Of a stretch of DNA of 64,000 bases, positions 5,263-20,592 are shown in pieces. Position 1 is the stretch's first letter; each line of letters begins with the position of its first letter. A model generated the notes under the pieces. The model was not told the DNA's origin. It ran no database searches and saw only the letters and a program-made list of their open reading frames with translations. The stretch is from contig NZ_AP019777.1 in NCBI RefSeq assembly GCF_019669905.1, positions 1,116,001 through 1,180,000 on the forward strand. The letters run 5' to 3'. Made by a program: the position numbers and the translations under genes. This DNA is from Methylomonas koyamae. GTDB lineage: Bacteria; Pseudomonadota; Gammaproteobacteria; Methylococcales; Methylomonadaceae.

Positions 5263-5289
5263 GGGCTTTCTCCCGAAATCTTAAAAATT

Positions 5290-5332
5290 GGAGAAAGCCG
5301 CCCCTTCCGGGGTAGACTTTCTCCGGAAGGGT
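5290..5332 (-). promoter_or_regulatory. Structured leader RNA of radC (copy 1)
   Basis: This is the clearest member of a leader family found before 13 genes in this block. Read on the minus strand, CCGGAAGGGT (as its complement at 5323-5332) pairs with 5301-5310, and 5317-5324 pairs with 5290-5297. The two helices interleave, so the fold is an H-type pseudoknot. It lies 28 bases upstream of the radC start. The genomic setting matches the radC RNA motif described by comparative genomics in conjugative elements; the identity with that family is inferred. Confidence 0.7.
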
Positions 5333-5413
5333 TGTCAAAAAAATTCAAAGCGTCGTCAGCGATGCCTGCAAACGTTGACCGTCGGCAGCGCAATTTCGCG
5401 AAAGACGCTTAAG

Positions 5414-5434
5414 CTGACGCCATTACGGCGTCAG
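5414..5434 (-). other. Intercistronic hairpin between the GHKL gene and radC
   Basis: A perfect 8-bp stem, CTGACGCC with GGCGTCAG around a 5-base loop, lies between the end of the upstream gene at 5533 and the radC leader. No run of U follows on either strand, so it is not a typical terminator. It could be an RNA processing or stability element. Confidence 0.4.
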
Positions 5435-5532
5435 GTGTTTGGAAATACTTGCTTGTTACGTGGTCTCGCCAAAAAACCAGCCAAAAGCCACGTGCTCACT
5501 CAGTCACGGCCGTCGACCCGGTTGGGTTTCGA

Positions 5533-7128
5533 CTACATTTCAGTAACGGTGACGACATCGCCATCCTTGCCAAGCACGATTTGAAAGGTCCTGGAAAACA
5601 AGGCAGGACAACTACCAAATTTCGGCAGCAGTCGTTGCAATGCATCCGCAGGCTTGTCAGCCGTGTTGGCCACCACGAAGTTATGAAAATCCCATTCATC
5701 GGTTTCCTTGGCGGATTCCATGAACGTATCCCATTCGTCGTAGTAGGACGATGCCTGGCAAACCACCAACCCGGATGACTCCCGACTGGGTACGATGAAG
5801 CAATCCTGATCCTCGTCATACACGGCATCCTGATCGATGTCGATGGACTCGCCATTGAGGGTTAACCGGTATTGTTCACAAAAGACCGCCTGACCACTCA
5901 CCCATTGCCCCGCAAAAAAAGCGCGGTGCGTTTCGTTGCCGATGTCCAAGGTGATGGCCGGCGAGTTCAAATCGACCAGGTACGAAAATAGCCAATGCCT
6001 AGCATCCAACCCCGGCCGAAACACCCGATAATCCATGTGCCAAGAGAACATCCAGCGTAGCGCACCGACCTCATCGAGATCATCTAGATCGGCGACTTTG
6101 ACAAGGCCGTTTTCCACATCACTTCGACTGACCGGTTGCGAAACCGCAGCCAAATTCACTCGGCTGCAACCTTCCTTGATTGGATAGTCCTGAATGATCG
6201 CCAATACCTGTTTGGGCAATAACGGCACGTCATTCAGTAAATCCAGACAGCGGTAAGTTTTCAAGGTGTCGTAACCAAGTACAAACTCCTCCACCAATAG
6301 CTGGCTCTTGATCACTTCCAGGCGTTGCCGGGCTTCCCGTTGCAGAACCTGCTTAATCTCGGCAATCACCTGCGCTTCGTCGATCAACTTATCCCGATCC
6401 GGCAACCGTGCGAAAAACCGGCTTGAATCCAAATGGATGACATGACCGGGGTCTCGTTCATGGTGACTGTGATAGACCGGCAAACCTTGCAGATACAGAT
6501 GAAAATACTCTGATTGCCGCAACCAGTCTTCGCTCTGGGACAAGCCATACAGATACAGCTCACCCAGTTCGGTCTCGATGAACGGTAGCGTTGAGTTAGC
6601 CGCTCTCGGCCGATCCAGGCTGACACCGTTAAAGCGCACCTCAATCGGAAATGCTCGCGCCAGGCGACGCAACTGAGATTCAATCCGCTCCGCGTCCGGT
6701 TTAAACTGGGTCAATGTCAAGCAGGTAATGCCTTGCCAGTCGGCGGGTTCGATGACAATCGGTTGAAAGGCCAATAGCTCAGCCGTATACACCGAAAATC
6801 GACCGCCTTTGCTGTCTACGCTGATGGCATCGCAGGCAAAAATGGCCGACAAAAAGCCGATGCCAAACGGATGTTCCCGTTCGATGACATCAATATCCCA
6901 GCCAGACTCAGCCACGGTCAGTAACGATTTCAAACAGGCAATGCCGCAGCCATCGTCACACACCGTCAAGGTTCGAGTGTCTTCAACATACTCGAAGCTG
7001 ACGAATGTGGCGCCGGCGCGGCGGGCATTCTGCATCAGTTCGCCCAGAACCGTGGTGGACTGGGTAAAGCTGAAGCGCAGGTTGTTGATCAGTTTTTCGG
7101 GGTTTACCGATAATTGTGTGGTGTTCAT
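5533..7128 (-). CDS. GHKL (Hsp90-like) ATPase domain protein
   Basis: This 531-residue protein has an N-terminal GHKL ATP-binding fold: the N-box LGELMQNARRAGA, the G1 motif VCDDGCGIA and the G2 region HPFGIGFLSA. The rest is unlike MutL, Hsp90 or histidine kinases and I do not recognise it, although a protein of this kind is common in the conserved region of large conjugative elements. There is no phosphoacceptor domain and no membrane segment. The ATG at 7128 has GAGGAA upstream and is preceded by a structured leader. It is read together with the neighbouring methyltransferase gene. An ATP-driven conformational role in DNA transfer or protection from restriction is a guess. Confidence 0.8.
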   Translation of the reverse strand: MNTTQLSVNPEKLINNLRFSFTQSTTVLGELMQNARRAGATFVSFEYVEDTRTLTVCDDGCGIACLKSLLTVAESGWDIDVIEREHPFGIGFLSAIFACDAISVDSKGGRFSVYTAELLAFQPIVIEPADWQGITCLTLTQFKPDAERIESQLRRLARAFPIEVRFNGVSLDRPRAANSTLPFIETELGELYLYGLSQSEDWLRQSEYFHLYLQGLPVYHSHHERDPGHVIHLDSSRFFARLPDRDKLIDEAQVIAEIKQVLQREARQRLEVIKSQLLVEEFVLGYDTLKTYRCLDLLNDVPLLPKQVLAIIQDYPIKEGCSRVNLAAVSQPVSRSDVENGLVKVADLDDLDEVGALRWMFSWHMDYRVFRPGLDARHWLFSYLVDLNSPAITLDIGNETHRAFFAGQWVSGQAVFCEQYRLTLNGESIDIDQDAVYDEDQDCFIVPSRESSGLVVCQASSYYDEWDTFMESAKETDEWDFHNFVVANTADKPADALQRLLPKFGSCPALFSRTFQIVLGKDGDVVTVTEM

Positions 7129-7149
7129 GTGAGTTCCTCAAAGTAAAAA

Positions 7150-7213
7150 GCCCCGAGGAAATGACACAGTTCGACCCCGACGGGGAGAACGGATCATCTC
7201 CCCGAGGCGGGTG
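7150..7213 (-). promoter_or_regulatory. Structured leader RNA (copy 2)
   Basis: This copy of the leader family precedes the GHKL gene. ACCCG in the RNA can pair with CGGGGT, and a long, partly G-U paired helix forms between 7192-7208 and 7150-7167, crossing the first. The GAGG ribosome site follows it directly. Confidence 0.6.
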
Positions 7214-7248
7214 ATACTGGCTAGGTTAAGTCCCGGTTTAACACCGAT

Positions 7249-9012
7249 TTACGATGCCAAAGCCAGGTCTGTAGTCGATGGCAGGCAGCCCGTCCATTCC
7301 AGCAAGCTGGATTGTGCGTTTTCCAATACCGCATCGGGATCGATACCCCGACTGGCTAGTACCGTGCTCATTGCTTGGGTTAACAGGCCATGGCCTCTTT
7401 CCCGTTCCGACTCCCCGCCGTGCTTGATAGCCCAGAAGGGATCGAATCGGATAGCTCGGCCATCGCATTTGCACTGCTTGTTCACTTCGGTGTGAAACGC
7501 CTTATCGAACGCTTCGGCCTGTTCGAACTGCTGCCAGAAACCTTTCCCAGCTTGCATGTCCACCGGCGGTAACCAGCGGCGCTGGCGGCCGACCCAACGG
7601 TTCATTCGGTCGATCAAGATTTCGCTTTTCGGAAAAAAGTGGATGGTACCGACGCCCGGATAATAGCGAACGTCAAAGTAACTGCCACCGATCCGTTGTC
7701 CGACCCGAAGCGCGTGAAAATGCTGCCGAAACACCGATACCAAACTTACTTCCGCTTCGGTCTTGCCGTCGAGCAAGGCAAATACCTTGTCGAAGTCGGC
7801 CAGCAGCCGTTCCGATTCCCAGTTCAAACCATTCTGGTAAGCACTCGAGCCATGACCCGGCAGAATGAAGCGCGTGGTTTTGATCCGCATACCCAGCGTG
7901 CGATGTTTATCATTGGATTTCCAGCCCATGTAAAACACCGCGTTATCGCTGTAATAGCGGGTGATCAAATCGAATACATCGCATACCATGCTCAGTTGAA
8001 TTTCACCTTGCTGATCGATGATGCCTTGCAAAAAGCCGTAGATATTCGGCACGGTAAATTCCAAGGACTTCACCGTTTCGAAATCCGATTCCAAGCGTTT
8101 TTGCGCCCCCGATGACAAGCGTGATGTGACCTGCGTCGAGCGTAAAATGCTGACCCAGGCCCGATTCTTCAAATCGTGATAGCGTTTAAACAGCGTCCGC
8201 TTCACCGCATCCGAAGACGACTCGTCTTCACTACTGATACCGCCACCGCTCAGTTCGCCGAGAGTTTTACCCAGCATGGCCCGATAACGACTGGCTCGGG
8301 CTTCACTGAATACGGCTTGGCGCGCGGCTTCGACCGCGGCATTGAACATCAGTACCGCATTGTCGATGAAGGCGTTTGGTAAGGCCAACTCGTTGGGCAT
8401 TTGAAACTCACCGGCTAAATCGTCGGCCTCCCGCCTATCCTGGCACAAATCATCCAGAATACAGCCGAGGATGTCCTGCTCAAAGGTTGAAGTTTTCCTC
8501 AACCAGACCAAGGCCACCTCGACCGGTGTTTTGCGTTCGGCATCCTCGCCGGCGAACATTTCTGGCAGATACTCGACCTCGCCGTGCTGCTCGATCAAAC
8601 GCAATAACAGCTGGCGTTCTTTCGAAAACGGATTGCGCACGGTTTCGGCATTGAGAATGGCGACGATTTCACCGTCGAATAAGATCTCCCAAGCCTTCAA
8701 CACGTGCTTGGCCCCGTCGGCAAACGGCGGATTCATGATGATGTGCGAATAGACACTGCCGCTTTGAAACTGCAGAAAATCCATCCCCACCACGGCAAAT
8801 CCTTCATCGCGCAGAACTGCATGTTTGCGGATATCGATTTCAATGCAATCGATCGGCAAACGTTTCCCGTATTGGTAGGGTACTGAACGAAGCAAATGTC
8901 CTTCGCCTGCTGAAGGCTCCAATACCCGAGTGAATTGTTGGTTCTTGAACATCGCCCAGGCTTTACGGCTCAGTGCTTCTGGCGTGGGGTAATATTGATA
9001 AGGGTCTGTCAT
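7249..9012 (-). CDS. DNA methyltransferase-like protein with DUF4942
   Basis: This 587-residue protein has an N-terminal class I SAM-binding fold (LEPSAGEGHLL at about residues 31-41) and the catalytic motif NPPF typical of adenine-N6 methyltransferases near residue 94. The C-terminal region resembles DUF4942, which often follows such a domain in plasmids and conjugative elements. It may methylate the element's DNA to avoid host restriction. I chose the ATG at 9012 (MTDPYQYYPTPEAL) because TTGGAG lies at good spacing; the ATG four codons earlier lies too close to that site. No matching restriction nuclease is next to it, so it is probably a solitary enzyme. Confidence 0.82.
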   Translation of the reverse strand: MTDPYQYYPTPEALSRKAWAMFKNQQFTRVLEPSAGEGHLLRSVPYQYGKRLPIDCIEIDIRKHAVLRDEGFAVVGMDFLQFQSGSVYSHIIMNPPFADGAKHVLKAWEILFDGEIVAILNAETVRNPFSKERQLLLRLIEQHGEVEYLPEMFAGEDAERKTPVEVALVWLRKTSTFEQDILGCILDDLCQDRREADDLAGEFQMPNELALPNAFIDNAVLMFNAAVEAARQAVFSEARASRYRAMLGKTLGELSGGGISSEDESSSDAVKRTLFKRYHDLKNRAWVSILRSTQVTSRLSSGAQKRLESDFETVKSLEFTVPNIYGFLQGIIDQQGEIQLSMVCDVFDLITRYYSDNAVFYMGWKSNDKHRTLGMRIKTTRFILPGHGSSAYQNGLNWESERLLADFDKVFALLDGKTEAEVSLVSVFRQHFHALRVGQRIGGSYFDVRYYPGVGTIHFFPKSEILIDRMNRWVGRQRRWLPPVDMQAGKGFWQQFEQAEAFDKAFHTEVNKQCKCDGRAIRFDPFWAIKHGGESERERGHGLLTQAMSTVLASRGIDPDAVLENAQSSLLEWTGCLPSTTDLALAS

Positions 9013-9028
9013 GGTATTCTCCAAAGAA

Positions 9029-9080
9029 GCCCCTGACGACCGATTTATCCCTGGCGGGATAGAATCATCCCGCAGGGGTA
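9029..9080 (-). promoter_or_regulatory. Structured leader RNA (copy 3)
   Basis: This leader copy precedes the methyltransferase gene. The CCCTG/CAGGG helix is clear, but the second, crossing helix is weaker here than in other copies. It ends just upstream of the TTTGGAGAA ribosome site. Confidence 0.5.
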
Positions 9081-9089
9081 GAGTGAAAG

Positions 9090-9106
9090 ACTCGGTTTAA
9101 CCGAGT
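9090..9106 (-). other. Perfect intercistronic palindrome
   Basis: ACTCGGTT and AACCGAGT form a perfect 8-bp dyad around one base. It lies between the stop of the upstream 165-residue gene and the leader of the methyltransferase gene. It is not followed by a U run. It could be a processing hairpin or an operator. Confidence 0.45.
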
Positions 9107-9127
9107 GTCAAATATGAAAACGGCGCG

Positions 9128-9625
9128 TCAGATCAACGCGAACCGCTTACCTAGAATGAAGTCCTGATACTGCCGGGCTTCGGTTTTTGCTTTGAATCGG
9201 GCATGTACGCTGCCGTCGATCCAGATTTCCCAAGGCAAGCGTTTAAGCTCACCTTTCACCAATTCCACCACGCCAACCCGAAAGTCGTCGTGTTGGTAAA
9301 GCACTTGGCGGGGACTGTCGACACGGACGATGCACTGATCCAATAATGCTGGACCACCAACATCACCCGGTTCGATCAACAGCGGCACTTTGATACTGCC
9401 GGTCGATCGACCAATCCAGCCGATGACATCGTGCTCGTCGAGCCACGATTGACCAGTGGTTGGATCGCCGTAATACAGCCGAATTTTGCGCCGGCTATGG
9501 CGAAGCTGTTCCAACAACTCGACCACCGGTTCCGGTGTATCGGCGTGATAACAGGTACCGGATGGCAAGCGCTGATACTGGATGCAATGACCCGTACTGA
9601 AGGTGTGTTCAAAGATTTGTGTCAT
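9128..9625 (-). CDS. Conserved element protein of unknown function
   Basis: I do not recognise a domain in this 165-residue protein. It has no membrane segment or signal peptide, is rich in beta-forming stretches and has a mixed charge. Its start at 9625 follows TTGAGGACAACATC and a structured leader copy. Its placement between a methyltransferase and a zinc-ribbon gene, all on one strand with the same leader type, marks it as part of the coordinated conserved block rather than cargo. Confidence 0.72.
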   Translation of the reverse strand: MTQIFEHTFSTGHCIQYQRLPSGTCYHADTPEPVVELLEQLRHSRRKIRLYYGDPTTGQSWLDEHDVIGWIGRSTGSIKVPLLIEPGDVGGPALLDQCIVRVDSPRQVLYQHDDFRVGVVELVKGELKRLPWEIWIDGSVHARFKAKTEARQYQDFILGKRFALI

Positions 9626-9642
9626 GATGTTGTCCTCAAAAA

Positions 9643-9692
9643 TACGGAAACATCACGCATCCCCAGCAGGAATAGGACATTCCCGTGTGGGT
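9643..9692 (-). promoter_or_regulatory. Structured leader RNA (copy 4)
   Basis: In this copy the crossing helix pairs ACGGGAATGTC with GATGTTTCCGT (with mismatches) and CCC with GGG. It lies directly before the ribosome site of the 165-residue gene at 9625. Confidence 0.5.
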
Positions 9693-9746
9693 GGATAAAA
9701 AAGAGTGCCGAATCGAATGACGTGGCTAACTCAGGTTTTTGCAAAT

Positions 9747-9769
9747 TGCGCGCTTAAAAACCGCGCGCA
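9747..9769 (-). other. GC-rich intercistronic hairpin
   Basis: TGCGCGC and GCGCGCA form a perfect 7-bp stem around a 9-base A-rich loop, 4 bases beyond the end of the zinc-ribbon gene. The downstream U tract is too weak to call a terminator. Confidence 0.4.
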
Positions 9770-9773
9770 CTTT

Positions 9774-10436
9774 TCAGGATTGGATCTCCAGTACAGGTTT
9801 TCCCAAGGCTTGTAAGGCCAGAGGGATTAACTGATCTAAATTTTCCCAATCGATACTGCCGCCATTGGCTTCGCCTTGTTGATAGGCTTCAACCAAACCG
9901 CGGCAAACTTGCATGGCCGCTTGCTCATTCTTCAATTGCCGAACCGAATGATCCGGTTCCGGCCATTGTTCAACGGCCACGCATTCCCAGGCCAAGCTTT
10001 CATCGCCCGACCCAAGGTATTCGTCGGATAATAACGGCATTGCCGCGGTGTCATCCCAAATGCTGGCATCGTTGAATGCCTGCTCGGCAAGTTGTTGAGC
10101 CGCTTCGGGACTATCCGCGGTGATACCGACCGACACCCTATGCACATAGTCGATTTCGTAGGAGACTACGAAGAACCGATTCACAGCCGCCGCCGTGACA
10201 TTAGCTGAGGCGGGTTTTTCGTCTGGCAATTCGGTTTCCACCGATTCACCCTCGATCAATGCGCTTTCATAAGGCTCGATCTCCTTGTTGCAGTCCGGAC
10301 AGCGATCGTTACAGCCGCAATCCCACACATCCTCCCATTCGGTTTGGCAGTAAGGGCAGCGGTACTGATTCAGATAGCGAACCGTGCTGTTTTCGACAGC
10401 GGTTGTGCCAACGATGGGTTGGTTGATTGTTTTCAT
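9774..10436 (-). CDS. Zinc-ribbon protein of the element core, unknown function
   Basis: This 220-residue protein has two CxxC pairs near its N-terminus (CPYC at about 22-25 and CPDC at about 41-44, with extra cysteines between), which look like a zinc ribbon. A region with a FFVVSYEIDYVHRVSVGI-type beta strand set follows, then an acidic C-terminal part. I do not recognise the whole protein. I chose the ATG at 10436 (MKTINQP) because GGAG lies 9 bases upstream; the in-frame ATG at 10442 is only 3 bases from it. The gene is preceded by a very clear leader pseudoknot. It may bind DNA or RNA through the ribbon. Confidence 0.72.
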   Translation of the reverse strand: MKTINQPIVGTTAVENSTVRYLNQYRCPYCQTEWEDVWDCGCNDRCPDCNKEIEPYESALIEGESVETELPDEKPASANVTAAAVNRFFVVSYEIDYVHRVSVGITADSPEAAQQLAEQAFNDASIWDDTAAMPLLSDEYLGSGDESLAWECVAVEQWPEPDHSVRQLKNEQAAMQVCRGLVEAYQQGEANGGSIDWENLDQLIPLALQALGKPVLEIQS

Positions 10437-10455
10437 GGTCATGTTCTCCAAAAAA

Positions 10456-10498
10456 TGCAGGAACGACCACCCGGCAGGATGATGTTCCTGCAAGGGTA
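10456..10498 (-). promoter_or_regulatory. Structured leader RNA (copy 5)
   Basis: A compact example of the leader family. The minus-strand RNA pairs GCAGGAAC (10484-10491) with GTTCCTGC (10457-10464), while ACCC (10494-10497) pairs with GGGT (10469-10472). The pairs interleave, so the fold is a pseudoknot. The GGAG ribosome site follows. Confidence 0.65.
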
Positions 10499-10601
10499 AA
10501 GTCGCTGAATAAAGCCGAAAATCGGCTTGCGCAGCGGGGTTGAATTCGCGCAAAAATCGGTATATGGTGGCTAAAACTCATTAAAAAGCAGAGAAATAGC
10601 C

Positions 10602-10979
10602 ATGTTTGACGATATTTTGCGCATTTTTGATTTCCTCAGTCCTAAGCAGACGGAAGAGACGTATCCAAGTCGAAAACCGATGGCGATTCCGGTCGACGAA
10701 CCACTAAAAGTCATTCGACATTGCCAACAAATTTTCCAAAAATTGGATGTTTTGGAAGCCGACGTGCTCAAGCGGATTGATAATCCTGAACAAGCCTGGC
10801 CGTTTCTAAACAAGATTCGACAAATTCGTCGGGAAACCCAGAACGACTTGTTGTCGTTATTGCCCGAAGGTCACTGCCTACTGGCCGATGACTCCAGTCA
10901 ATACGGAATTCCGGTTCGCAGCATCAATACTGGAACCGGAACCACGCTAAAGGTGTTCAATGGCGGGCTTGCTGATTAA
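10602..10979 (+). CDS. Small unknown protein on the opposite strand
   Basis: This 125-residue frame is the only plus-strand gene candidate inside the minus-strand core block. It starts MFDDILRIFDFLS and has no recognisable domain, membrane segment or signal peptide. The middle is helical and amphipathic. A weak purine stretch (AGCAGAGAAA) precedes the ATG. It converges with, and overlaps by 23 bases, the end of the gene at 10957-11493. Codon use looks protein-like, and no minus-strand frame in the same place is better. It could still be a chance open frame. Confidence 0.55.
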   Translation: MFDDILRIFDFLSPKQTEETYPSRKPMAIPVDEPLKVIRHCQQIFQKLDVLEADVLKRIDNPEQAWPFLNKIRQIRRETQNDLLSLLPEGHCLLADDSSQYGIPVRSINTGTGTTLKVFNGGLAD

Positions 10980-11493
10980 CCGGTAACGCGTTGGCATTAC
11001 CTTTTAGCGCTTCCCGCAATTGAAAAACCTGTTGAGCGGTTTTAGTGGACTTGTCGTCCACCATGGCTGATTCGGTCGCTTTTTTAGACCGCCGACGAGG
11101 TTTAGCCTCGGTTTCCGCCGAGACGATCGTCGGTTTGATTTTCAAAAGCTCCCGCTCCAATTTGGCGATTTCAATATCCGCCTCGTAGAGTTTGATTGTT
11201 TTCTGTTTGGCTTGATATTGAAGCTCCAATCGCTCCAACTCGCGATTGGTTTCACGATTGCGACTCTGAATTTCCTGGCGCACCGAATCCGATATCGCCA
11301 ACCAATCCAAGTCTTCTCGGCTACGTGGCATGATGACCGGTAGCCGATTCCTTGCCAATCGCTGAACACGATAGCGGTGAAACGTTTGAGCTGCGTGTTT
11401 CAATGCATGCAACAGTTGCAACGTCGTTGCCCAAATCACTCTCAGAGCGAGAATAAACATAGCCAACAGGATGATGCCGAAAATAAAGTTCAT
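10957..11493 (-). CDS. Membrane-anchored coiled-coil protein, unknown function
   Basis: This 178-residue protein starts with one strong hydrophobic segment (residues about 3-22, FIFGIILLAMFILALRVIWA). A charged coiled-coil follows (about residues 75-125, with many E, R, K and L repeats), then a basic tail. It is probably anchored in the inner membrane with the coiled-coil in the cytoplasm. I recognise no family. The ATG at 11493 has a good ribosome site (AAGGAGAA), and a leader copy and the two-hairpin element lie upstream, so it may head a transcript. Confidence 0.72.
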   Translation of the reverse strand: MNFIFGIILLAMFILALRVIWATTLQLLHALKHAAQTFHRYRVQRLARNRLPVIMPRSREDLDWLAISDSVRQEIQSRNRETNRELERLELQYQAKQKTIKLYEADIEIAKLERELLKIKPTIVSAETEAKPRRRSKKATESAMVDDKSTKTAQQVFQLREALKGNANALPVNQQARH

Positions 11494-11521
11494 TGAAGTT
11501 CTCCTTTAAAAGTTTAAGAAA

Positions 11522-11575
11522 ACACTTCGAATGAACAGCACCCAGCCGGGCGATGGTCGCCCGAAGCGGGTTTTG
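11522..11575 (-). promoter_or_regulatory. Structured leader RNA (copy 6)
   Basis: In this copy ACCC pairs with GGGT and GCTTCG pairs with CGAAGT, in crossing order. A longer unpaired stretch than usual separates it from the AAGGAGAA ribosome site of the membrane coiled-coil gene. Confidence 0.55.
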
Positions 11576-11607
11576 ATTTTCAGTGGGTAGAACCACTGTG
11601 ATTTACA

Positions 11608-11686
11608 TCGGGCTTAACGCACCCGACACGATCAAGGGAATACCTTGCTCGCCGCCTAATGACGGAACGCCGACCGAAGTCGGATT
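11608..11686 (-). repeat. Two-hairpin intergenic element, copy A
   Basis: This is one of three related intergenic segments (with 17161-17235 and 20612-20689), each upstream of a leader pseudoknot. It has a hairpin TCGGG/CCCGA around the loop CTTAACGCA (11608-11626), a conserved middle (GCCGCCTAA, then ACGGAACGCC) and a second hairpin CCGAC-CGAA-GTCGG (11670-11683). A further stem CAGTGG/CCACTG lies at 11581-11598. The stems vary in sequence between copies but keep pairing, while the loops stay the same. The strand is assigned from the downstream gene. Confidence 0.7.
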
Positions 11687-11839
11687 CAGCATTCTTCGAA
11701 AAGAACACATGAAAGGTCTGTTTGTCGAATGGGCTCGTTATATGGAGTGCATTCGACAAACCGCGGTTGCAATCAGTTACCCATAACCACAATCCAAGGC
11801 ATTGGGCCAAGGATTGGGCTACAGATAACGGACTGAAAA

Positions 11840-13651: not shown

Positions 13652-13670
13652 GGTGTGCTCCAAAAATTAA

Positions 13671-13715
13671 GGGCAAACCATGACCCCAGCGGGACAAAGG
13701 TTTGCCCCAGTGGGT
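13671..13715 (-). promoter_or_regulatory. Structured leader RNA (copy 7)
   Basis: A strong example: GGGCAAACC (13699-13707, minus strand) pairs with GGTTTGCCC (13671-13679) over 9 bases, crossing the ACCCA/TGGGGT helix (13711-13715 with 13683-13688). The TTGGAG ribosome site of the VWA gene follows. Confidence 0.65.
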
Positions 13716-13736
13716 GAATAGTTAAATGGCGTCAGA

Positions 13737-14942
13737 TCAGAACCAGTAATCCTGGTCGGAATCGTCCGCTTCCTCATCGTCTCCTGCCGTCACCATTGAA
13801 GGTTCCGTCGCGTGGTCTACATCATGCGATTGATCGGCATCCTGTTCTGTTTCTCGCTCAGACTGATGCTTACCCAGCAAGACTTCCAAAGCCCAGTCAT
13901 CCGGTGCCGATTCCGCTTCGAGTTCATCATCAAAGATGCCATCAAACAGATCCGTAAAATCCGGATCGTTTTCAGGCGTCTCAGTGATAACAGATGCTGG
14001 ATATGCTGGCAGCACGGATGGCTCGGATTCCTCTGGCTTGACGGTTTCTTCAACATCAATACCAAGATCAACGTCAGCATCAGTCTCTAATGCCGGCGCT
14101 TGCGCCGCCAACAAACCTTCACCGTGCCGCCGGGTTTTATCCGGATCGGCCAGCAACATCGCCGTGGCGAGAATTTCCTGTAGCAAACTACCTTCTATCG
14201 TTCCCCGATTCGGGATCTTGCCGAGCAAGTCGTCAATGGTCGTTACCACTGGTGCTACGCGATGATCCAAAAAACTCAAACCATCGAGTTTGTCGCGGAT
14301 GCGTTTGATCGGCCTGAGCGCGTTGCGGGTGACTTGTTCCTTGCCGAGTAACGATTGCTCGACCAGCAAGTTGGCGTCCACCGCAATTTCATGGAACATC
14401 TGCTCGCTCAACGAACCGATTTTGCTTTCCAGGCGTTCGACCTCCACTTTTGGCAACTGTTCGGGTAAAGCAACCGATACCACCAGGTAATCGAACGTCA
14501 AGCGGGTGGCGACCAAAGCCACCGAGTCGATGGCTTTCTCGATGATGCCGGCAAATTCCGGATGTTTGACCATCCAGTCTTGTACCGCGGCATCGTAGCC
14601 ATCCAAAAACTCGGCCCGTGCCTGAGCAAAGTCCCCGGCGATCCGGTCCAGTTCCGCGGTGACCTGCGCCGCTGCCGCGACCGGTACGATAAACCCGCCC
14701 AGAAACCGAGTGCCGACGCGTAAACAAATGCGTTCGGCTTCCTTTTTCAAGCGGTTGAACACCGATAGACGGTCCGGATCGAGCAAGCGCTTCGAGCCCA
14801 AACTGGCCAAATCCTCCGGCGGCAACTTGCTCCCGTCGGCCAGGACCAGATCCTCTTTGTTGAGTTTTTTGCGCGCGCCGTAAATGGTGGCGTCGACTTT
14901 GACCAAGACCACTTGGTCCAGAATAAGTTGGGTTTGTGTCAT
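13737..14942 (-). CDS. DUF3150 family protein
   Basis: This 401-residue cytoplasmic protein looks like the DUF3150 family, typically found between CobS-like and CobT-like genes in SXT/IncA/C-type elements. The first 280 residues are mostly alpha-helical; the last 120 are strongly acidic and low in complexity. It ends in DQDYWF. That terminal D-x-W-F is shared with the WGR protein and the YqaJ nuclease of the same block. The ATG at 14942 follows GGAGGTACAC. It may work with the AAA+/VWA pair, but no activity is known to me. Confidence 0.78.
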   Translation of the reverse strand: MTQTQLILDQVVLVKVDATIYGARKKLNKEDLVLADGSKLPPEDLASLGSKRLLDPDRLSVFNRLKKEAERICLRVGTRFLGGFIVPVAAAAQVTAELDRIAGDFAQARAEFLDGYDAAVQDWMVKHPEFAGIIEKAIDSVALVATRLTFDYLVVSVALPEQLPKVEVERLESKIGSLSEQMFHEIAVDANLLVEQSLLGKEQVTRNALRPIKRIRDKLDGLSFLDHRVAPVVTTIDDLLGKIPNRGTIEGSLLQEILATAMLLADPDKTRRHGEGLLAAQAPALETDADVDLGIDVEETVKPEESEPSVLPAYPASVITETPENDPDFTDLFDGIFDDELEAESAPDDWALEVLLGKHQSERETEQDADQSHDVDHATEPSMVTAGDDEEADDSDQDYWF

Positions 14943-14957
14943 GTGTACCTCCTAGGG

Positions 14958-15002
14958 AAGAAGGCACACTGACCCCATGGGGGCAAATGGCCCCTTCCGG
15001 GT
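14958..15002 (-). promoter_or_regulatory. Structured leader RNA (copy 8)
   Basis: This copy has the ACCC/GGGGT helix, but the second helix is short (GAAGG with CCTTC). It lies before the strong TAGGAGGT ribosome site of the DUF3150 gene. Confidence 0.5.
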
Positions 15003-15064
15003 TAATGTTAAAAAACTGCAACGAATGGTTCGCCACAGGAATTGAAGGTTGGGACCTCGGCCGA

Positions 15065-15817
15065 TCAAAACCAGTGATCGGTTTGATCGGCCATGGCCAA
15101 CGCCAGATCGAGCCTGGGTTTCAATAGACCCAAGCTTTCCGCCGCCGGCCGTATGGCCTCGACGTCGGTATCGAATAACGCCAATACATCCGTTTCGGCT
15201 TTCAGCTCTGCCGACACGTCACGGCCGCTTTCGGTGGCAATACCGACCGAAACGCCGGGAAACGCGGCATGTTTCAAGGCCATCAACCACAGGCAAGGCA
15301 ACACCCCGTGTTCGAGGTCGATTTGCCCACTGAGATCGAAGGCTTCATCGCCCTGGCCGGCATCGATCAACCGCTGCCAACCGGACCAGTCACTCACCGC
15401 ATCACCTCGAGCCTGAGACCAGGCTTCCAGATCGCCCAACCAACGCCGTAGTGCGATACCCATGTCTAGCAAGGTAACGTGTCCGGCGCGACAATCGACA
15501 TGCCAATACAGCTTGTCGACAGCGATCGACGGAGTCTGGGGCGGCATGGGCGAGGGATCGGCCATCGGCGCGGACCGGGATAAGCGGATGTTGCCGTCGG
15601 CATCGATCTCGACTTCGCCGACAAACACATAGCCCTTGGCCTGTTTTTGCCGTTCGATGTCATATTGGCGAATCCCGGTTCGCGTATTGATGCTCGGCAG
15701 ACGTGAAGCTGTCTTGCCCCAACGCGTCGAGATCGAGCCGTCGGCATTCGTAGTGACGGCCCAGTCTTTGGAACTGCCATCACTATTGCGATAGCGGAAC
15801 AAATTCCACACGGCCAT
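15065..15817 (-). CDS. WGR-domain-like protein
   Basis: This 250-residue protein begins with a stretch that resembles a WGR domain (residues about 1-65, including STRWGKTASRL), a small fold found in DNA-associated proteins. The rest is not recognised. It ends ADQTDHWF, again with a terminal D-x-W-F. I chose the ATG at 15817 (MAVWNLFRY), which starts 2 bases after the stop of the AAA+ gene. That close spacing suggests coupled translation, and it fits the lack of a leader copy here. Confidence 0.75.
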   Translation of the reverse strand: MAVWNLFRYRNSDGSSKDWAVTTNADGSISTRWGKTASRLPSINTRTGIRQYDIERQKQAKGYVFVGEVEIDADGNIRLSRSAPMADPSPMPPQTPSIAVDKLYWHVDCRAGHVTLLDMGIALRRWLGDLEAWSQARGDAVSDWSGWQRLIDAGQGDEAFDLSGQIDLEHGVLPCLWLMALKHAAFPGVSVGIATESGRDVSAELKAETDVLALFDTDVEAIRPAAESLGLLKPRLDLALAMADQTDHWF

Positions 15818-15819
15818 GG

Positions 15820-16761
15820 CTACACCGCCCAATCGTCACCGAACACATCCTTGGCGATGCGATGAATCGCTTCGCGTTCGGCGGGTTCGGCACGGAAGGT
15901 CAAGGCTCGGTCCAGCGAGTAGGCGAGGGCATTCGGGGCACTTTTGAAGGTCGCCACCAAAGTTGCCCAGCGCACTAAACCGCGTGTCGATAACGTCACC
16001 GACAACATGCCGCCGCCGTCCGCACCGCCGATAAAGACTTTACGAATCTGGTTGGCCACTTTGATCATGCTTTCCCGTACCGATTCCGGCATGGTCGGCA
16101 CCACATCGGCCAATAGCTTCATTTCGTCTTCGGGTTCGGGGTAACCGACTTCCATCAACCTAAAACGATCCAGGAAGGCCAGGTTTTGCCGTAAAACCCC
16201 TTGATACAAACCCGACTGATCGCCGCTGCCGGCACTATTGCCGGTGGCCACCAAGCGAAACTTGGGATGCGGGGCAATCACGTCGCCGGTCTGCGGAATC
16301 GTCAACGGCTTGCCTTCGACGATTTCATTCAGGCCAATCAGCTCTGCGGGGTCGATGGCATCGATTTCGTTGATCAACAGCACATGGCCCAGGCGTACCG
16401 CCAGGGTCAACGGGCCATCAATCCACTTCATCGCGCCACCGTCAACCAACATGTACTGACCGAGTAGATCATTGAGTTCCAGTCGACCGTGACCGGTGAC
16501 CGCATGCACGCCCCAATGGAGACGCGCCGCGACTTGCTCCAACAACGAGGTTTTACCCGAACCGGTCGGACCAGTCAGGTATAAGCCGTCGCCGTTATGC
16601 GCGCCCAAAAACGCCAACACATCCCGCAAGTGATCCTTGCGAAACACATACGGCTTGACGGCCGGTACATAGGGGTTATTGGCCGGGGCAAAGCCTTCCA
16701 CTTTCATGGACGCCGGGGCCTGAATGCCGAAGGTGTCGGCGATGGAATAGTGTTGATACAT
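15820..16761 (-). CDS. CobS/MoxR-like AAA+ ATPase
   Basis: This 313-residue AAA+ ATPase has a Walker A motif LTGPTGSGKTSLLEQ at about residues 61-75, a Walker B motif VLLINEIDAID at about 126-136 and a sensor region FRLVATGNSAGSG. It resembles CobS and other MoxR-type ATPases and is the likely motor partner of the VWA protein at 11840-13651. I chose the ATG at 16761 (MYQHYSIADTFG) because GAGGAGCTCACC directly precedes it. Homologous pairs are carried by SXT/R391 and IncA/C elements, where their role is unknown. Confidence 0.85.
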   Translation of the reverse strand: MYQHYSIADTFGIQAPASMKVEGFAPANNPYVPAVKPYVFRKDHLRDVLAFLGAHNGDGLYLTGPTGSGKTSLLEQVAARLHWGVHAVTGHGRLELNDLLGQYMLVDGGAMKWIDGPLTLAVRLGHVLLINEIDAIDPAELIGLNEIVEGKPLTIPQTGDVIAPHPKFRLVATGNSAGSGDQSGLYQGVLRQNLAFLDRFRLMEVGYPEPEDEMKLLADVVPTMPESVRESMIKVANQIRKVFIGGADGGGMLSVTLSTRGLVRWATLVATFKSAPNALAYSLDRALTFRAEPAEREAIHRIAKDVFGDDWAV

Positions 16762-16794
16762 GGTGAGCTCCTCGAGGACTAGCCTCAGAAAACA

Positions 16795-16835
16795 AGGGGC
16801 GCACCGCCCCGAAGGGGTAATGAGCCCCAACGGGT
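16795..16835 (-). promoter_or_regulatory. Structured leader RNA (copy 9)
   Basis: A compact copy before the AAA+ gene: GGGGC pairs with GCCCC and crosses the ACCCG/CGGGG helix. The GAGGAG ribosome site follows. Confidence 0.55.
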
Positions 16836-16843
16836 GAGTAAAG

Positions 16844-16859
16844 CCCTGGTAAACCAGGG
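16844..16859 (-). other. Perfect intercistronic hairpin
   Basis: CCCTGG and CCAGGG form a 6-bp stem around TAAA, between the stop of the 70-residue gene and the leader of the AAA+ gene. It resembles in position the hairpins at 9090-9106 and 9747-9769. Confidence 0.4.
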
Positions 16860-16870
16860 TCGATAAAAAA

Positions 16871-17083
16871 TTAACGCAACTGCATCACGCAATACATTGC
16901 CCATTCGGCACGGGCCAACAGCTCCCGGTCCATCAAACGCACGATGCGCTGAATGTCGCTTCTCAAACCGGGGTCCAAGATTTGACGATGCATCTCCAGC
17001 AACACACGCTTTTTGGCCTGAATGTCGTTGCTATGCGCAACGTTCAACCAGCCCTGCAAGGTTTTCCAAAAGTCTTGATTCAT
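16871..17083 (-). CDS. Small helical protein, unknown function
   Basis: This 70-residue protein starts MNQDFWKTLQGWL and is predicted to be largely alpha-helical, without cysteines that could bind metal or a membrane segment. The ATG at 17083 is preceded by GAAGGAGG at good spacing and by a leader copy, which is the main reason to call it real. It is the first gene after the two-hairpin element copy B, so it probably heads the transcript that continues into the AAA+, WGR, DUF3150 and VWA genes. Confidence 0.65.
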   Translation of the reverse strand: MNQDFWKTLQGWLNVAHSNDIQAKKRVLLEMHRQILDPGLRSDIQRIVRLMDRELLARAEWAMYCVMQLR

Positions 17084-17105
17084 AATGACCTCCTTCAATC
17101 GATAA

Positions 17106-17150
17106 AAGGGGTCACCGGGTCCCGTGAGGGTGATGAACCCCAACGGGACA
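17106..17150 (-). promoter_or_regulatory. Structured leader RNA (copy 10)
   Basis: In this copy GTCCCGT pairs with ACGGGAC, and GGGGT...CACC pairs with GGTGACCCC, in crossing order. It precedes the GAAGGAGG ribosome site of the 70-residue gene. Confidence 0.6.
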
Positions 17151-17160
17151 AACTAAAACA

Positions 17161-17235
17161 CCAGGCTTGACGCACCTGGCACACGAGGCAAACGCTCATG
17201 CCGCTTAACAACGGAACGCCGGTCGAAACCGGATT
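17161..17235 (-). repeat. Two-hairpin intergenic element, copy B
   Basis: Copy B of the element described at 11608-11686. The first stem is CCAGG/CCTGG around CTTGACGCA (17161-17179). The second is CCGGT-CGAA-ACCGG (17219-17232). The middle ACGGAACGCC is conserved. It lies in the 340-base gap between the YqaJ nuclease gene and the 70-residue gene. The rest of that gap (17236-17424) holds no gene that I can support. Confidence 0.7.
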
Positions 17236-17424
17236 CGGGATTCCACGAAGGGAATGCCTGAACGATGCGGGTTTTGGGTTGGGTTTTACGGCAAAGCCCA
17301 GCCTAAAACCGACATGCCTTAACTGAAGGATTCCATGAAGTGTCCGGCGTTAACACTCTTAGCCGACTGTCATCAATGAACATCCCGTAACCACCAGGGT
17401 TACAGGATGTCTTGAAACGAACCA

Positions 17425-18426
17425 TCAAAACCAAAAATCCACACCGGCTAGGTCTTTCAAGGCCTGAGCGTCGAACGGTACTTCGGCGTGTTTACCGTCA
17501 TCGTCCCTGCAAGTCACACGGACTCGCGTGGCCGACGGTTTTCGGTAAACTTCCAGCGCAGAGGTCTGAACATCCGGTTGCAAGGCGTGAAGTGCGGCCT
17601 TGTAATCGATGGCGCCCTGGCTTTGAAACCGGCTGATGCGTAGCCCGGAATGCTCCGCAGCCACGTAATCACCCATCAACCTCACCAAAGTGTCTTCAAT
17701 GCGCGACTGCTCATCCTTCAACTGGTTGAGTTGGCTGTTGAGGTCCAATATAGTCAACTCCCGTTGCCGATACGTCGCCGCCAGTTGTTGCCATTGCCGT
17801 TCCGCCTCGCCGTGCGGCAAATACAAATCGCGTTCAGGATCCTTGTGTGGTTCCTTTTTCGATTTAACTGCCGACCAGAAATCCATTGCCGTTTCGACCA
17901 ACTCGGTGAGAAAGCGGTCATCGCGCTGAATTTCAAACTCGATATCCTGGCTTTGATGGTAGAAAAACAAGAAACCACGTTCGGCATCAGCGACCAGCAA
18001 TTGCTGCTGCACCTGGCACCAATACAACTGATAGGCGGCCGAGGCTTCCCGATTCAACAGCACATCCAGAAACGTGGTCTCGTGCGGGCATTTGATTTCT
18101 ACGGGCTCATTCGCGTCGGACAAGCCGTCGAACGAGGCGCGCATCAAGGGAAACTGCTCCGACTCGCCGCACAGCGGTAACAACATCAGATCGTGTTTGT
18201 CCTCGAAGCGTTGCAAAGCTTCGGGCTCTTGCTGGATGCCGGCGCGGATCAACGGGTTGTTGTCCAGGCTGGCTTCCAAAACCAGGCCGATTTTCTCGGC
18301 CCAGAGACGCCACGGGGTTTTGTACGGCGAACGGTTCATGACGATGGCTGCTTCGCTGGCACTGACACCTTGTAAGCGCCACTGCCGCCAGGTATCGGAA
18401 CGTTGCGAAACGTCGATGACCTTCAT
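17425..18426 (-). CDS. exo: YqaJ-type exonuclease (phage-like recombinase)
   Basis: This 333-residue protein is a lambda-exonuclease-like nuclease of the YqaJ family. It pairs with the single-strand annealing protein encoded at 18853-19902 to form a Red-type recombination system. The core motifs are visible: QGVSASEAAIVM near the N-terminus, SFDGLSDANEPVEIKCP with the catalytic D-E-x-K set, and YWCQVQQQLL. I chose the ATG at 18426 (MKVIDVSQRSDTW), which overlaps the stop of the upstream gene as ATGA. A longer frame upstream reads through that gene in another phase and is not likely. The protein ends AGVDFWF, sharing the D-x-W-F tail. Confidence 0.88.
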   Translation of the reverse strand: MKVIDVSQRSDTWRQWRLQGVSASEAAIVMNRSPYKTPWRLWAEKIGLVLEASLDNNPLIRAGIQQEPEALQRFEDKHDLMLLPLCGESEQFPLMRASFDGLSDANEPVEIKCPHETTFLDVLLNREASAAYQLYWCQVQQQLLVADAERGFLFFYHQSQDIEFEIQRDDRFLTELVETAMDFWSAVKSKKEPHKDPERDLYLPHGEAERQWQQLAATYRQRELTILDLNSQLNQLKDEQSRIEDTLVRLMGDYVAAEHSGLRISRFQSQGAIDYKAALHALQPDVQTSALEVYRKPSATRVRVTCRDDDGKHAEVPFDAQALKDLAGVDFWF

Positions 18427-18758
18427 CGCGAAAATCCGGTCAACTGCACCTGGCAGCCGAAACGTACCGTCTCGATGCCAAGCTTGTGCAGCTGGGTCTG
18501 GCAACGCCGGGCCCAATAGCCATCCCCGAAAAGCAACAGCAGTTCGTCTTGGACCGGCAGACACACGCCGCCAAAACTCTCGGCAAGTGTCGTCAGTTCT
18601 GGTTGGCTCAAAGGTTGCGGATTCGGTTCGTTGCCCTGGGGTCGCCACAGGCGTTCCAGAAAGCCCCGGCCGTGACGGCGTAATACCGTGGGGGAATCGT
18701 AACGTTGCCAGTCGGTATGACAGGGCACGCGGTTCAATGATTGATCGTTTGTGTTCAT
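18423..18758 (-). CDS. Unknown small protein between bet and exo
   Basis: I do not recognise this 111-residue protein. It begins MNTNDQSLNRVPCHTDW and has basic and hydrophobic stretches but no membrane segment. It lies between the annealing protein and nuclease genes and overlaps exo by 4 bases (ATGA), so it is likely translated in step with it. A leader copy and AGGAGATGTC precede the ATG at 18758. A role as an accessory factor of the recombination pair is inferred from position only. Confidence 0.7.
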   Translation of the reverse strand: MNTNDQSLNRVPCHTDWQRYDSPTVLRRHGRGFLERLWRPQGNEPNPQPLSQPELTTLAESFGGVCLPVQDELLLLFGDGYWARRCQTQLHKLGIETVRFGCQVQLTGFSR

Positions 18759-18776
18759 GACATCTCCTGATAAAAG

Positions 18777-18825
18777 AAGGGTGTCATGTCCAACCCCGTG
18801 GGCGAAACATGACGCCCTCGTGGGT
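18777..18825 (-). promoter_or_regulatory. Structured leader RNA (copy 11)
   Basis: GGGCGTCATGT pairs with ACATGACACCC (one mismatch in 11) and crosses the ACCC/GGGT helix. This is one of the strongest second helices in the set. The AGGAGA ribosome site follows. Confidence 0.65.
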
Positions 18826-18852
18826 GGTTAGGGAATGTTGGGTAGCAGCGTA

Positions 18853-19902
18853 TTAGGCGGCGTTACCCAAGGTTTGACGGGCCTGATTTATGGCCATGTC
18901 TTTCGCGGACAAAGGTGGCATACCGGTGCTGTCGGTTTGGTTCAAGGCTTGTGTTGCCCTGGGATCAACCTCCGATACCTTATCCAGCTCGGCCAAAGCA
19001 AACGTCAGATCGATGCCTTTGAATTTTTGATTGGCATAGTCGTAGGCCGCTTTCCAGGCGCCTGCCGCCGCAGTCCGTCTAACCAACTCTGCGACCGCTT
19101 TTTGCACCTTGGGATGGATTTGCGACAGGTCGATCACGTGCGGTGTAGGCTCGGATGCTCCCGTAAACCGATCATCAACATGGCCAACATCGGTTTTCCA
19201 ATGCGTCGCCTCGCCATCGATCACGGTACCGTCGACGATATCATCGAGCGTTTTGCCATCCATTTCCTCGGCGGCATAGCCGCATTCCTCCGGAAACGCC
19301 GCCCGCAAGGATGCCGCTTTACCGCATTTGGCCAATTGCCCCTTGGGGCGTTTGATCCACATCGCGGTCGGCACTTGCGAGTTTTTACCTCCGGCAGTGC
19401 TGTAGGCTTCGAGCCAATAGACTTCCTCGGTAAAGGCGCAACGTTTGCCGCCGACGATCCGGTACACGGTGACCGCTACCCATTCGGGAAAAGTCACGGT
19501 GACACTGGATTCCTGCCATTGCTCGTTGTCGTCCTTGTAGCGCCCGGTAAAGGTTTTGGTGACATCAGGGCCCCAAACGGGCCTGTCCATGCCAGCCCAA
19601 ACCCCGGTACGCGACGCAGTAGTCTGAATTTCCATGATGGATGGCCACACGGTCTCGACATTGCGGCCTAAGGCTGCACTCCACATCGGCACGATATGCA
19701 CCGGCTTTTTGAAGATGTCGAGCTTGCGGGCTTTGCAATAATCCAGCGCCATCAGAATGGCTTCTGGGGTTTTCGCCGTGGGAAAAGTGACTTCCGTCAG
19801 CACTTTCCAGGACTGCTCCGACAGGCCGTAGCTCTGTTGCACAACAGTCGGCATCGGCAGGTCACGGGTTTTGGGTAAGGTATTACGGTTGTTTTGGCTC
19901 AT
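18853..19902 (-). CDS. bet: RecT/Bet single-strand annealing protein
   Basis: This 349-residue protein belongs to the RecT/Beta annealing family. Its core shows the expected pattern, with ALDYCKARKLDIFKKPVHIV near residues 53-72, then a central beta-rich region and CGKAASLRAAFPEECGYAAEEM. It would anneal single strands made by the YqaJ nuclease and allow recombination between related elements, as for the SXT bet/exo pair. The ATG at 19902 follows GAAGGAGACC and a leader copy. SSB is encoded directly upstream. Confidence 0.9.
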   Translation of the reverse strand: MSQNNRNTLPKTRDLPMPTVVQQSYGLSEQSWKVLTEVTFPTAKTPEAILMALDYCKARKLDIFKKPVHIVPMWSAALGRNVETVWPSIMEIQTTASRTGVWAGMDRPVWGPDVTKTFTGRYKDDNEQWQESSVTVTFPEWVAVTVYRIVGGKRCAFTEEVYWLEAYSTAGGKNSQVPTAMWIKRPKGQLAKCGKAASLRAAFPEECGYAAEEMDGKTLDDIVDGTVIDGEATHWKTDVGHVDDRFTGASEPTPHVIDLSQIHPKVQKAVAELVRRTAAAGAWKAAYDYANQKFKGIDLTFALAELDKVSEVDPRATQALNQTDSTGMPPLSAKDMAINQARQTLGNAA

Positions 19903-19924
19903 GGTGGGTCTCCTTCAATAAAAA

Positions 19925-19970
19925 AAGGGAACGCCATCACCCGCCGGGGAATGGAATTCCCCTTGGGGTT
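19925..19970 (-). promoter_or_regulatory. Structured leader RNA (copy 12)
   Basis: AAGGGGAA pairs with the CTTTCCC-type segment GTTCCCTT and crosses the ACCC/GGGT helix. It precedes the AAGGAGA ribosome site of bet. Confidence 0.55.
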
Positions 19971-20046
19971 GAAATACCGAAGCCTGAAAAGGATCGGCGG
20001 TGTAAAACGTTAAATCCACGAACGCCGATAATCGGCGCGCCGCGGT

Positions 20047-20478
20047 TTAATGGTTTGGCATATCGCTGTAGTCGTCATCCCAATCAGAGTCCTCGGGTGC
20101 CGAGTTCGATGTTGATGAACCATTTCCAGATGTTGATGGGGCAGGGCGATCCAGCATCTGCAATTCAAAGGCGGCGATTTCGGTACGGTACCGCTTATCG
20201 CCCGCTTGGCTCCATTGTTGGGTACGCAAACGGCCCTCGATGTAGATCTGGCTGCCTTTATGCAAATACTGTTCGGCGGTATCGGCGAGTTTTTTGAAAA
20301 ACACCACCCGATGCCATTCCGTCCGCTCCTGTTTGCCGTTTTTAGGATCGTTCCAGACTTCGCAGGTTGCCAAACGGACGGCGACGACTTTGCCGCCGTT
20401 GTTTGGCATAAAACGAACATCCGGATCGGCGCCAAGCCGGCCCAGCAAGATGACTTTGTTCACGCCGCGATTAGCCAT
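20047..20478 (-). CDS. ssb: Single-stranded DNA-binding protein
   Basis: This 143-residue SSB starts [19 protein letters not shown] and carries the OB fold to about residue 108 (through [20 protein letters not shown]). The C-terminal tail is short, serine-rich and acidic ([15 protein letters not shown]) but lacks the usual terminal I-P-F tip used for partner binding. The start at 20478 has GGAGGAATG upstream; a longer frame to 20649 runs through the leader. It protects single strands during transfer and recombination and is probably expressed with bet and exo. Confidence 0.92.
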
Positions 20479-20540
20479 GATGACATTCCTCCTGTCGGCC
20501 GCGCCCGACTCAACGATAACAATACCCAGCTGCGCGGCGA

Positions 20541-20592
20541 TGGGCATGCCGGTGCGCCGAATCCCTGCGGGAATCGATATGCCCGGCAGGGT
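20541..20592 (-). promoter_or_regulatory. Structured leader RNA (copy 13)
   Basis: ACCCTGC pairs with GCAGGGA, and GGGCAT pairs with ATGCCC in crossing order. The distance to the ATG of ssb (about 60 bases) is longer than in the other copies. Confidence 0.5.

Follow-up and report, generated by a model that had tools for sequence, protein, structure and literature searches.

Leaders with a strand complementary to two competing partners precede genes of a recombination block in a Methylomonas koyamae conjugative element and its relatives

A 64,000-nucleotide stretch of the Methylomonas koyamae genome (contig NZ_AP019777.1, positions 1,116,001 to 1,180,000; hereafter the window) contains an F-type conjugative element, with homologues of TraN, TraU, TrbC, TraC and TraK at 41.9–54.6 kb, and a minus-strand gene block at 5–20.5 kb coding for DUF4942, CobT-like VWA, DUF3150, CobS-like AAA, YqaJ exonuclease, RecT/Bet and single-stranded DNA-binding (SSB) proteins. 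An initial annotation of this DNA described 13 structured leaders before genes of the block, and all 13 are present, on the minus strand, with hairpins from 5301–5332 through 20561–20592. In each leader a strand just downstream of the hairpin, here called p2, is complementary to the inner arm and loop of that hairpin and also to the Shine-Dalgarno (SD) and start region of the leader's own gene, and p2 thus has two competing partners; this second complementarity, to the ribosome site, was absent from the initial annotation and was found here. From these sequence comparisons we propose that each leader is probably a cis-acting translation switch, a reading to which we assign a probability of about 0.7.

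A strand with two competing partners

The arrangement of the leaders is constant and consists of an ACCC-type strand, a decoy, a GGGT-type strand, p2, a spacer, the SD sequence and the ATG. The decoy is the G-rich 5′ inner arm plus the loop of the ACCC…GGGT-type hairpin. In the window the hairpin and p2 together occupy about 45 nt, and there is one unit per gene. The boundaries of the decoy, p2 and start segments were set by hand before any energy calculation. Both pairings are specific to the individual leader: decoy and p2 pair with a mean of −13.2 kcal/mol when taken from the same leader versus −8.1 kcal/mol when taken from different ones, and p2 and the start region with −13.6 versus −8.8 kcal/mol, neither difference being reached in 20,000 permutations. 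Pairing of the decoy with the start region is not leader-specific (13,579 of 20,000 permutations).

The same comparison was made across 86 sources, comprising the window, five plasmid loci and 80 genome loci (the best 80 of 131 relatives identified by DUF3150). Leaders were collected with a detector that considers the hairpin alone, i.e. a CCC…GGG hairpin of at least 7 pairs ending 24–62 nt before an ATG that has an SD sequence and begins an open reading frame (ORF) of at least 60 codons. It returned 664 matches, 642 on the block strand and 22 on the opposite strand, and removal of similar ones left 197 non-redundant leaders. In these, decoy:p2 pairing averages −14.76 versus −9.98 kcal/mol (z −24.8) and p2:start pairing −12.37 versus −8.72 kcal/mol (z −20.0), each with 0 of 20,000 permutations, the latter being the alternative helix over the SD sequence or start codon that is expected of a switch occluding the ribosome binding site (RBS). 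Decoy:start pairing again gives no signal (z −0.6), and neither p2 pairing is seen in the 22 opposite-strand matches (z −1.5 and −1.1). Divided into four element groups, the leaders keep both p2 pairings in every one (0 of 5,000 each); we named these groups methanotroph or Methylomonas-type (67 leaders), Pseudomonas-type (28), SXT/IncC-like (40, the SXT label being our assumption) and distant (62).

Overall, the signal persists within orthologue groups and without the SD sequence. When partners are swapped only within orthologue groups (11 groups with 125 leaders; the group of the gene starting at 9012 was dropped, having fewer than four distinct leaders), z is −12.9 for decoy:p2 and −10.9 for p2:start, with 0 of 10,000 in total. 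With the SD part removed and unpaired energies capped at zero, p2 still pairs preferentially with positions −8 to +3 of its own start (z −16.4) and with the 9 nt that follow the G-run of its own decoy (z −13.0; 185 leaders in both tests). The decoy also resembles its own start region in sequence (z 6.2), yet in the SXT/IncC group this likeness is only z 1.0. Taken locus by locus, the 71 loci with at least five leaders, many of them close relatives and so not independent, give p<0.05 in 69 for decoy:p2, in 66 for p2:start and in 66 for both; neither pairing is significant in locus L028, and decoy:p2 only is significant in L069, L075 and L078. Lone energies are no evidence, as some control matches in the F plasmid and the IncC transfer region reach −21.4 kcal/mol for p2:start.

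In pseudoknot-free minimum-energy folds p2 is paired with the start region in 131 of the 197 leaders, with the decoy in 36 and with neither in 30. By our reading, p2 lies on the start region in 10 of the 13 window leaders, and the resulting hairpins, which would correspond to an off state, enclose the SD sequence and often the ATG (e.g. 14942 and 11493, leaders being designated by the start of their gene); 7128 and 10436 fold instead with the decoy:p2 helix nested.

The 13 leaders of the window

The leaders are listed below, all on the minus strand, with energies given as decoy:p2 / p2:start in kcal/mol.

Leader 1, 5260..5332 (minus): radC fragment (ATG 5262); hairpin 5301–5332, p2 5289–5300, ribosome site and ATG downstream; −17.1 / −19.2
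Leader 2, 7126..7212 (minus): gene 5533–7128; hairpin 7174–7212, p2 7152–7173; −20.9 / −12.6; unmatched by covariance model R1 (see below)
Leader 3, 9010..9079 (minus): DUF4942 gene 7249–9012; hairpin 9047–9079, p2 9034–9042; weak, −6.9 / −6.1
Leader 4, 9623..9692 (minus): gene 9128–9625; hairpin 9659–9692, p2 9645–9657; −10.4 / −15.0
Leader 5, 10434..10497 (minus): gene 9774–10436; hairpin 10469–10497, p2 10458–10468; −9.9 / −10.9
Leader 6, 11491..11571 (minus): gene 10957–11493; hairpin 11540–11571, start-pairing strand 11523–11536; −4.0 / −13.2
Leader 7, 13649..13715 (minus): CobT-like VWA gene 11840–13651; hairpin 13683–13715, p2 13669–13680; −18.2 / −15.4
Leader 8, 14940..15002 (minus): DUF3150 gene 13737–14942; hairpin 14972–15002, p2 14961–14971; −8.6 / −17.7
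Leader 9, 16759..16835 (minus): CobS-like AAA gene 15820–16761; hairpin 16806–16835, p2 16795–16805; −14.6 / −17.9
Leader 10, 17081..17149 (minus): 70-aa gene 16871–17083; hairpin 17119–17149, p2 17107–17117; −14.3 / −15.2
Leader 11, 18756..18825 (minus): 111-aa gene 18423–18758, which overlaps the start of the YqaJ exonuclease gene 17425–18426; hairpin 18793–18825, p2 18777–18792; −17.0 / −11.9
Leader 12, 19900..19969 (minus): RecT/Bet gene 18853–19902; hairpin 19939–19969, p2 19925–19938; −15.1 / −11.2
Leader 13, 20476..20592 (minus): SSB gene 20047–20478; hairpin 20561–20592, p2 20541–20552; −14.3 / −9.8

The leaders adjoin ribosome sites, as had been described, with the hairpin of leader 13 lying farther away and ending 82 nt ahead of its ATG (20478), where p2:start pairing is weak. 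The second helix, formed by decoy and p2, had been called weak in the copies at 9029 and 14958, and it is (leaders 3 and 8); the weakest copy of all, that of 11493, had gone unnoted. Weak decoy:p2 pairing in 11493 and 14942 is accompanied by strong p2:start pairing, and in the 9012 leader neither pairing is strong.

Covariation and shape of the fold

Covariation of the second helix, which the initial annotation had put forward, is well supported, in agreement with the window permutations above. In a MAFFT alignment of 12 copies, from which 7128 is left out, all seven pairs of the helix have changes on both sides; the covariation score is 0.558 versus 0.288 in shuffled alignments and there are 20 cells changed on both sides versus 9.1 (each 0 of 500 shuffles). 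Only the second helix was counted because the outer stem is misaligned there. In a model-fitted alignment of 85 sequences (80 distinct) there are 142 double-change cells versus 46.7 (0 of 500), a comparison in which the fitting itself favours the structure; the orthologue alignments A2 and A3 are mostly invariant and were left out of the counts.

The claim that the two helices cross has modest support. RNAalifold, applied to the 12-copy alignment, draws the second helix nested, with the inner C-run paired to the outer GGG in place of the outer stem, and covariance models R1 and R2 carry this structure. In 48 non-redundant model matches, a set assembled without selection for the outer stem, z is −7.9 for the inner stem (0 of 10,000), −3.4 for the outer stem (3 of 10,000) and −3.8 for the nested alternative (2 of 10,000). 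Since the outer stem is modestly supported and the nested alternative fits equally well, an H-type pseudoknot with crossing helices is possible and mildly supported, and is not established. The median loop lengths for such a fold, in the 159 leaders with decoy:p2 at −9 kcal/mol or better, are 3, 8 and 1 nt for L1, L2 and L3.

Internal cells that depart from Watson-Crick pairing comprise 69 G-T, 6 A-C and 29 others in decoy:p2, and 38 G-T, 23 A-C and 39 others in p2:start. The G-T excess lends modest support to folding of the sense strand, modest because a G-rich decoy biases slid registers toward G-T too, these alone giving ratios of G-T to A-C of up to about 6 to 1.

Distribution across elements and controls

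The leaders are concentrated in one kind of gene block. In the window the block is the following feature.

5154..20478 (minus): leader-carrying gene block; 12 detector matches, all on the minus strand and all within the block

These matches come from 16 minus-strand candidates in the block, and none of 13 plus-strand candidates in the window passes. The detector takes a shifted hairpin at 20478, uses an alternative ATG (10442) for 10436, and misses 5262 (short ORF). A comparable block is present on the Methylomonas plasmid pLM6, an S. stutzeri plasmid, pCAR1.3, pAQU1 and an IncC plasmid; PLSDB assigns these five plasmids to MOBH. The pass counts for same-strand and opposite-strand candidates are 16 of 23 and 1 of 6 in the IncC block, 0 of 27 and 2 of 13 in the transfer region of that plasmid, and 5 of 49 and 0 of 6 in half of the F plasmid. 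Twenty chromosome stretches, totalling 398 kb with a 2-kb overlap between two of them, yield 10 of 250 candidate ORFs and no pairing signal. A csrA gene lies near the block on pCAR1.3.

Covariance searches give a similar picture. The initial annotation had called for a search with a model built from the copies themselves, and such a model (R1, from 12 window copies) recovers its 12 at E 2.6e-8 to 0.016, all on the minus strand, as expected by construction; matches at this level in the window are confined to the block. The left-out copy, 7128, is absent from the 18 window matches of R1 at E≤10, of which the next best has E 0.19. Over 13 sources R1 gives 44 matches at E<1, 39 of them on the block strand and all of them in L001, L003, L004, L005, L025 and L026, with further copies thus placed on pLM6, pCAR1.3, pAQU1 and an IncC plasmid; at the same threshold neither the six chromosome controls nor the IncC transfer region gives any. 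When 25 sources are searched, the block strand has 84 of the 85 matches at E<0.1.

The same genome has a second block on another contig, C2. A second model, trained on 85 sequences that include the window leaders and no C2 sequence, gives 15 matches at E≤0.5 in the whole 5.1-Mb genome (150 of 342 first-look candidates scored), eight in the window block and seven in the C2 block. The detector finds 25 matches on C2, of which 15 lie in a minus-strand run from 153,955 to 171,746, two are opposite inside the run and eight are elsewhere. In the window radC is interrupted by an IS21-type insertion (istAB; span 2175–5262, RadC domain 2175–2534) and leader 1 is intact; on C2 an intact radC is preceded by the same kind of leader, at 159216.

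Among 229 genomes of the class, surveyed with strict filters and with 27 candidates scored in most, three have a match at E≤0.001, the M. koyamae genome itself and two others. Nearby matches in these two number 10 plus and 9 minus (L129) and 4 plus and 1 minus (L130), the minus ones being mostly mirror images of the plus ones. In one of them a DUF3150 gene follows on the same strand, some 14 kb farther downstream; none was found in the second genome, which is a draft assembly of many contigs. DUF3150 relatives in viral contigs yielded 46 pattern matches, none confirmed.

Comparison with known RNA families

PreQ1 and SAM-II riboswitches and the leaders of ribosomal protein genes and T4 gene 32 are RBS-occluding pseudoknot switches, in which structure near the ribosome site decides translation, as would be the case here. 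They conserve a ligand or protein site, whereas the leaders described here are private to their genes and keep mainly complementarity. In erm-type attenuators one strand has two competing partners, one of them at the RBS, and p2 is placed likewise; the difference is that the present leaders are repeated before most genes of a block.

The association with radC and element genes had suggested the reported radC RNA motif (RF01754), which is likewise a candidate cis-regulatory RNA with several copies per genome. We regard this identity as having virtually no chance of being correct. One of the 13 leaders, that of 5262, does precede a radC gene, the IS21-split copy, and the other 12 do not. An Rfam 15 scan at gathering scores gives no match in the window or in five relatives (L001–L005), and RF01754 has none in the M. 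koyamae genome (gathering score 40). A search with the radC RNA model, as had been proposed, finds none at E≤5 in window bases 1–26000, where the sole match is a chance one to MEG8_1; in L001, L003 and L005 at E≤10 there is no radC RNA among eight matches, all under gathering scores. Two true radC RNAs aligned for comparison are about 149 nt long, conserved in sequence and multi-hairpin; RF01754 has 149 positions, strong sequence conservation and other helices, a plan that the leaders do not share.

STAXI RNAs, according to their description (PMC2864571, Weinberg 2010), are pseudoknots near SSB, antirestriction and integrase genes. The leaders share with them pseudoknots, if formed, near SSB genes; STAXI RNAs have two or three tandem pseudoknots and frequent UUCG loops, whereas there is one leader per gene here, complementary to that gene's own RBS. 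No STAXI covariance match at gathering score occurs in the window or in L001–L005.

A proposed translation switch and its alternatives

Both p2 pairings, the leader-specific covariation, the placement before start codons and the concentration in one block across many elements were computed here, and we infer from them that the leaders act on translation. The decoy would imitate the SD sequence and spacer of its own gene, and p2 would be able to pair with only one of the two, decoy or real ribosome site. In the putative off state p2 would lie on the real ribosome site, burying the SD sequence and often the ATG; in the on state the decoy would capture p2 and free the ribosome site, the leader then taking the form either of an H-type pseudoknot with an outer ACCC:GGGT stem or of a nested hairpin with pairing between inner C-run and outer GGG. 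The copies would be shifted between states by a common factor, by an event at the ribosome or by the kinetics of folding. The block has no excess of promoters (7 sites versus 11.0 in shuffles), in line with control after transcription.

Several observations weigh against this proposal. Window leaders 3 and 13 fit start-pairing poorly. In orthologue group 17083 neither pairing is better than in swaps, nor is p2:start in group 20478. With a cut at −9 kcal/mol, 134 of the 197 leaders have both pairings, 25 that with the decoy only, 10 that with the start only and 28 neither. The outer stem is modestly supported, the nested alternative fitting as well. Finally, a rough energy sum, made without pseudoknot energy, favours the off state, so that some factor or kinetics would be required for the on state.

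Other explanations account for parts of these data. Translational coupling, in which a ribosome completing the preceding gene opens the hairpin at its 5′ strand and so resets the switch, draws on the SXT/IncC-type group, where the distance from the upstream stop to the leader is at most 10 nt in 15 of 40 cases. The Methylomonas-type group has only 5 of 67 so placed, with a median distance of 54 nt, and the counts for the remaining two groups are 7 of 28 and 14 of 62; coupling is unlikely, and upstream ribosomes might flip the switch just where a stop codon touches the leader. Alternatively, the decoy:p2 helix and a following run of U could be an intrinsic terminator between genes, with the ACCC…GGGT hairpin as anti-terminator. 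At least 6 T occur in the 8 nt after the helix in 19 of 67 Methylomonas-type leaders, and both strands of 5000–21200 have 33 terminator-like sites versus 20.5 (standard deviation 4.5) in shuffles. The tract is found, however, in only 27 of 197 leaders overall and in 2 of 40 of the SXT/IncC-type, and p2:start complementarity is left unexplained; we consider transcription attenuation unlikely, and a general intrinsic-terminator reading was rejected on the first of these counts.

A compact pseudoknot over the ribosome site is also the plan of some small riboswitches. Upstream of the SD sequence, strong conservation is limited to the CCC and GGG that the detector requires, the G-run of the decoy and the inner C-run; with no other strongly conserved position no common ligand pocket is apparent, and a metabolite riboswitch class is highly improbable. 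It is only slightly less so that the sequences act as single-stranded DNA, serving on entry into a recipient as Frpo-like promoters or as some other signal at the DNA level. The 13 leaders of the window share one strand, in a block that includes SSB and Bet genes, which would suit such a role, and single-stranded promoters ahead of leading-region genes are described for other plasmids (PMC11541004). Frpo sequences are likewise structured, and are there described as DNA-level promoter elements, whereas the leaders are complementary to the RBS and lack a promoter signal: none of the seven promoter-like sites falls in a leader, and their number is not in excess over shuffles. The detected hairpins end 24–62 nt before the ATG by definition, the adjoining strand pairs with the SD sequence or ATG, and the preference for G-T over A-C in decoy:p2 adds a modest point for RNA.

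If the translation switch is correct, the leaders may form a new RNA regulon, in which complementarity and not sequence would define the family of switches; this is a tentative suggestion. A single event or element-encoded factor could then turn on the whole block, and we suggest, as tentatively, that most genes of this recombination and establishment block would carry a decoy of their own ribosome site, with the copies insulated from one another. Since what it conserves is mainly complementarity, such a class of structured RNA tends to be overlooked by sequence-anchored RNA searches. Among the relatives are IncC plasmids (by PLSDB typing), major gene carriers between bacteria, as are the SXT-type integrative and conjugative elements that we presume to be among them. 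IncC and SXT/R391 elements reportedly repair CRISPR-Cas breaks in recipients, with the Bet/Exo genes said to be the agents. A gene-by-gene translation switch before SSB, Bet and other genes of the block would be a missing layer of control in IncC/SXT-type elements. We found no account of such leaders in the open-licence literature searched, and they seem to have escaped notice on IncC, pCAR1-type, SXT-like and methanotroph elements; the part of PMC3118119 (on SXT Exo/Bet) that was available does not mention them.

Neighbouring genes and other repeats

Within the otherwise minus-strand block there is a plus-strand ORF of 125 aa (10602–10979), between leader 5 and gene 10957–11493. About 1 kb from the block, at 21666–22883, is a gene for an NYN-domain protein with an OST-HTH/LOTUS domain, which may be RNA-directed. 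Further along, 25138–41400 codes for DUF4007, PAPS-reductase-like, helicase and Dnd-related methyltransferase proteins (the last above its cut-off) and for a cysteine desulfurase-like protein above no listed cut-off, with a Tn5-type transposase (35759–37090) among them; this cargo is possibly a Dnd-type phosphorothioation defence.

Two further repeats accompany the leaders. A hairpin-bearing repeat is present in three copies (11605–11713, 17158–17262 and 20609–20716), upstream of leaders 6, 10 and 13, the copies being 62–92% alike in their two parts; a short pattern taken from it occurs in 15 of 126 loci, all among L006 to L021, which are Methylomonas-type relatives. In the IncC block (L005) a repeated stretch, GATAGCTGGTCGCC...AAACAGCA, lies upstream of several leaders, namely upstream of 5148, 9983 and 13803.

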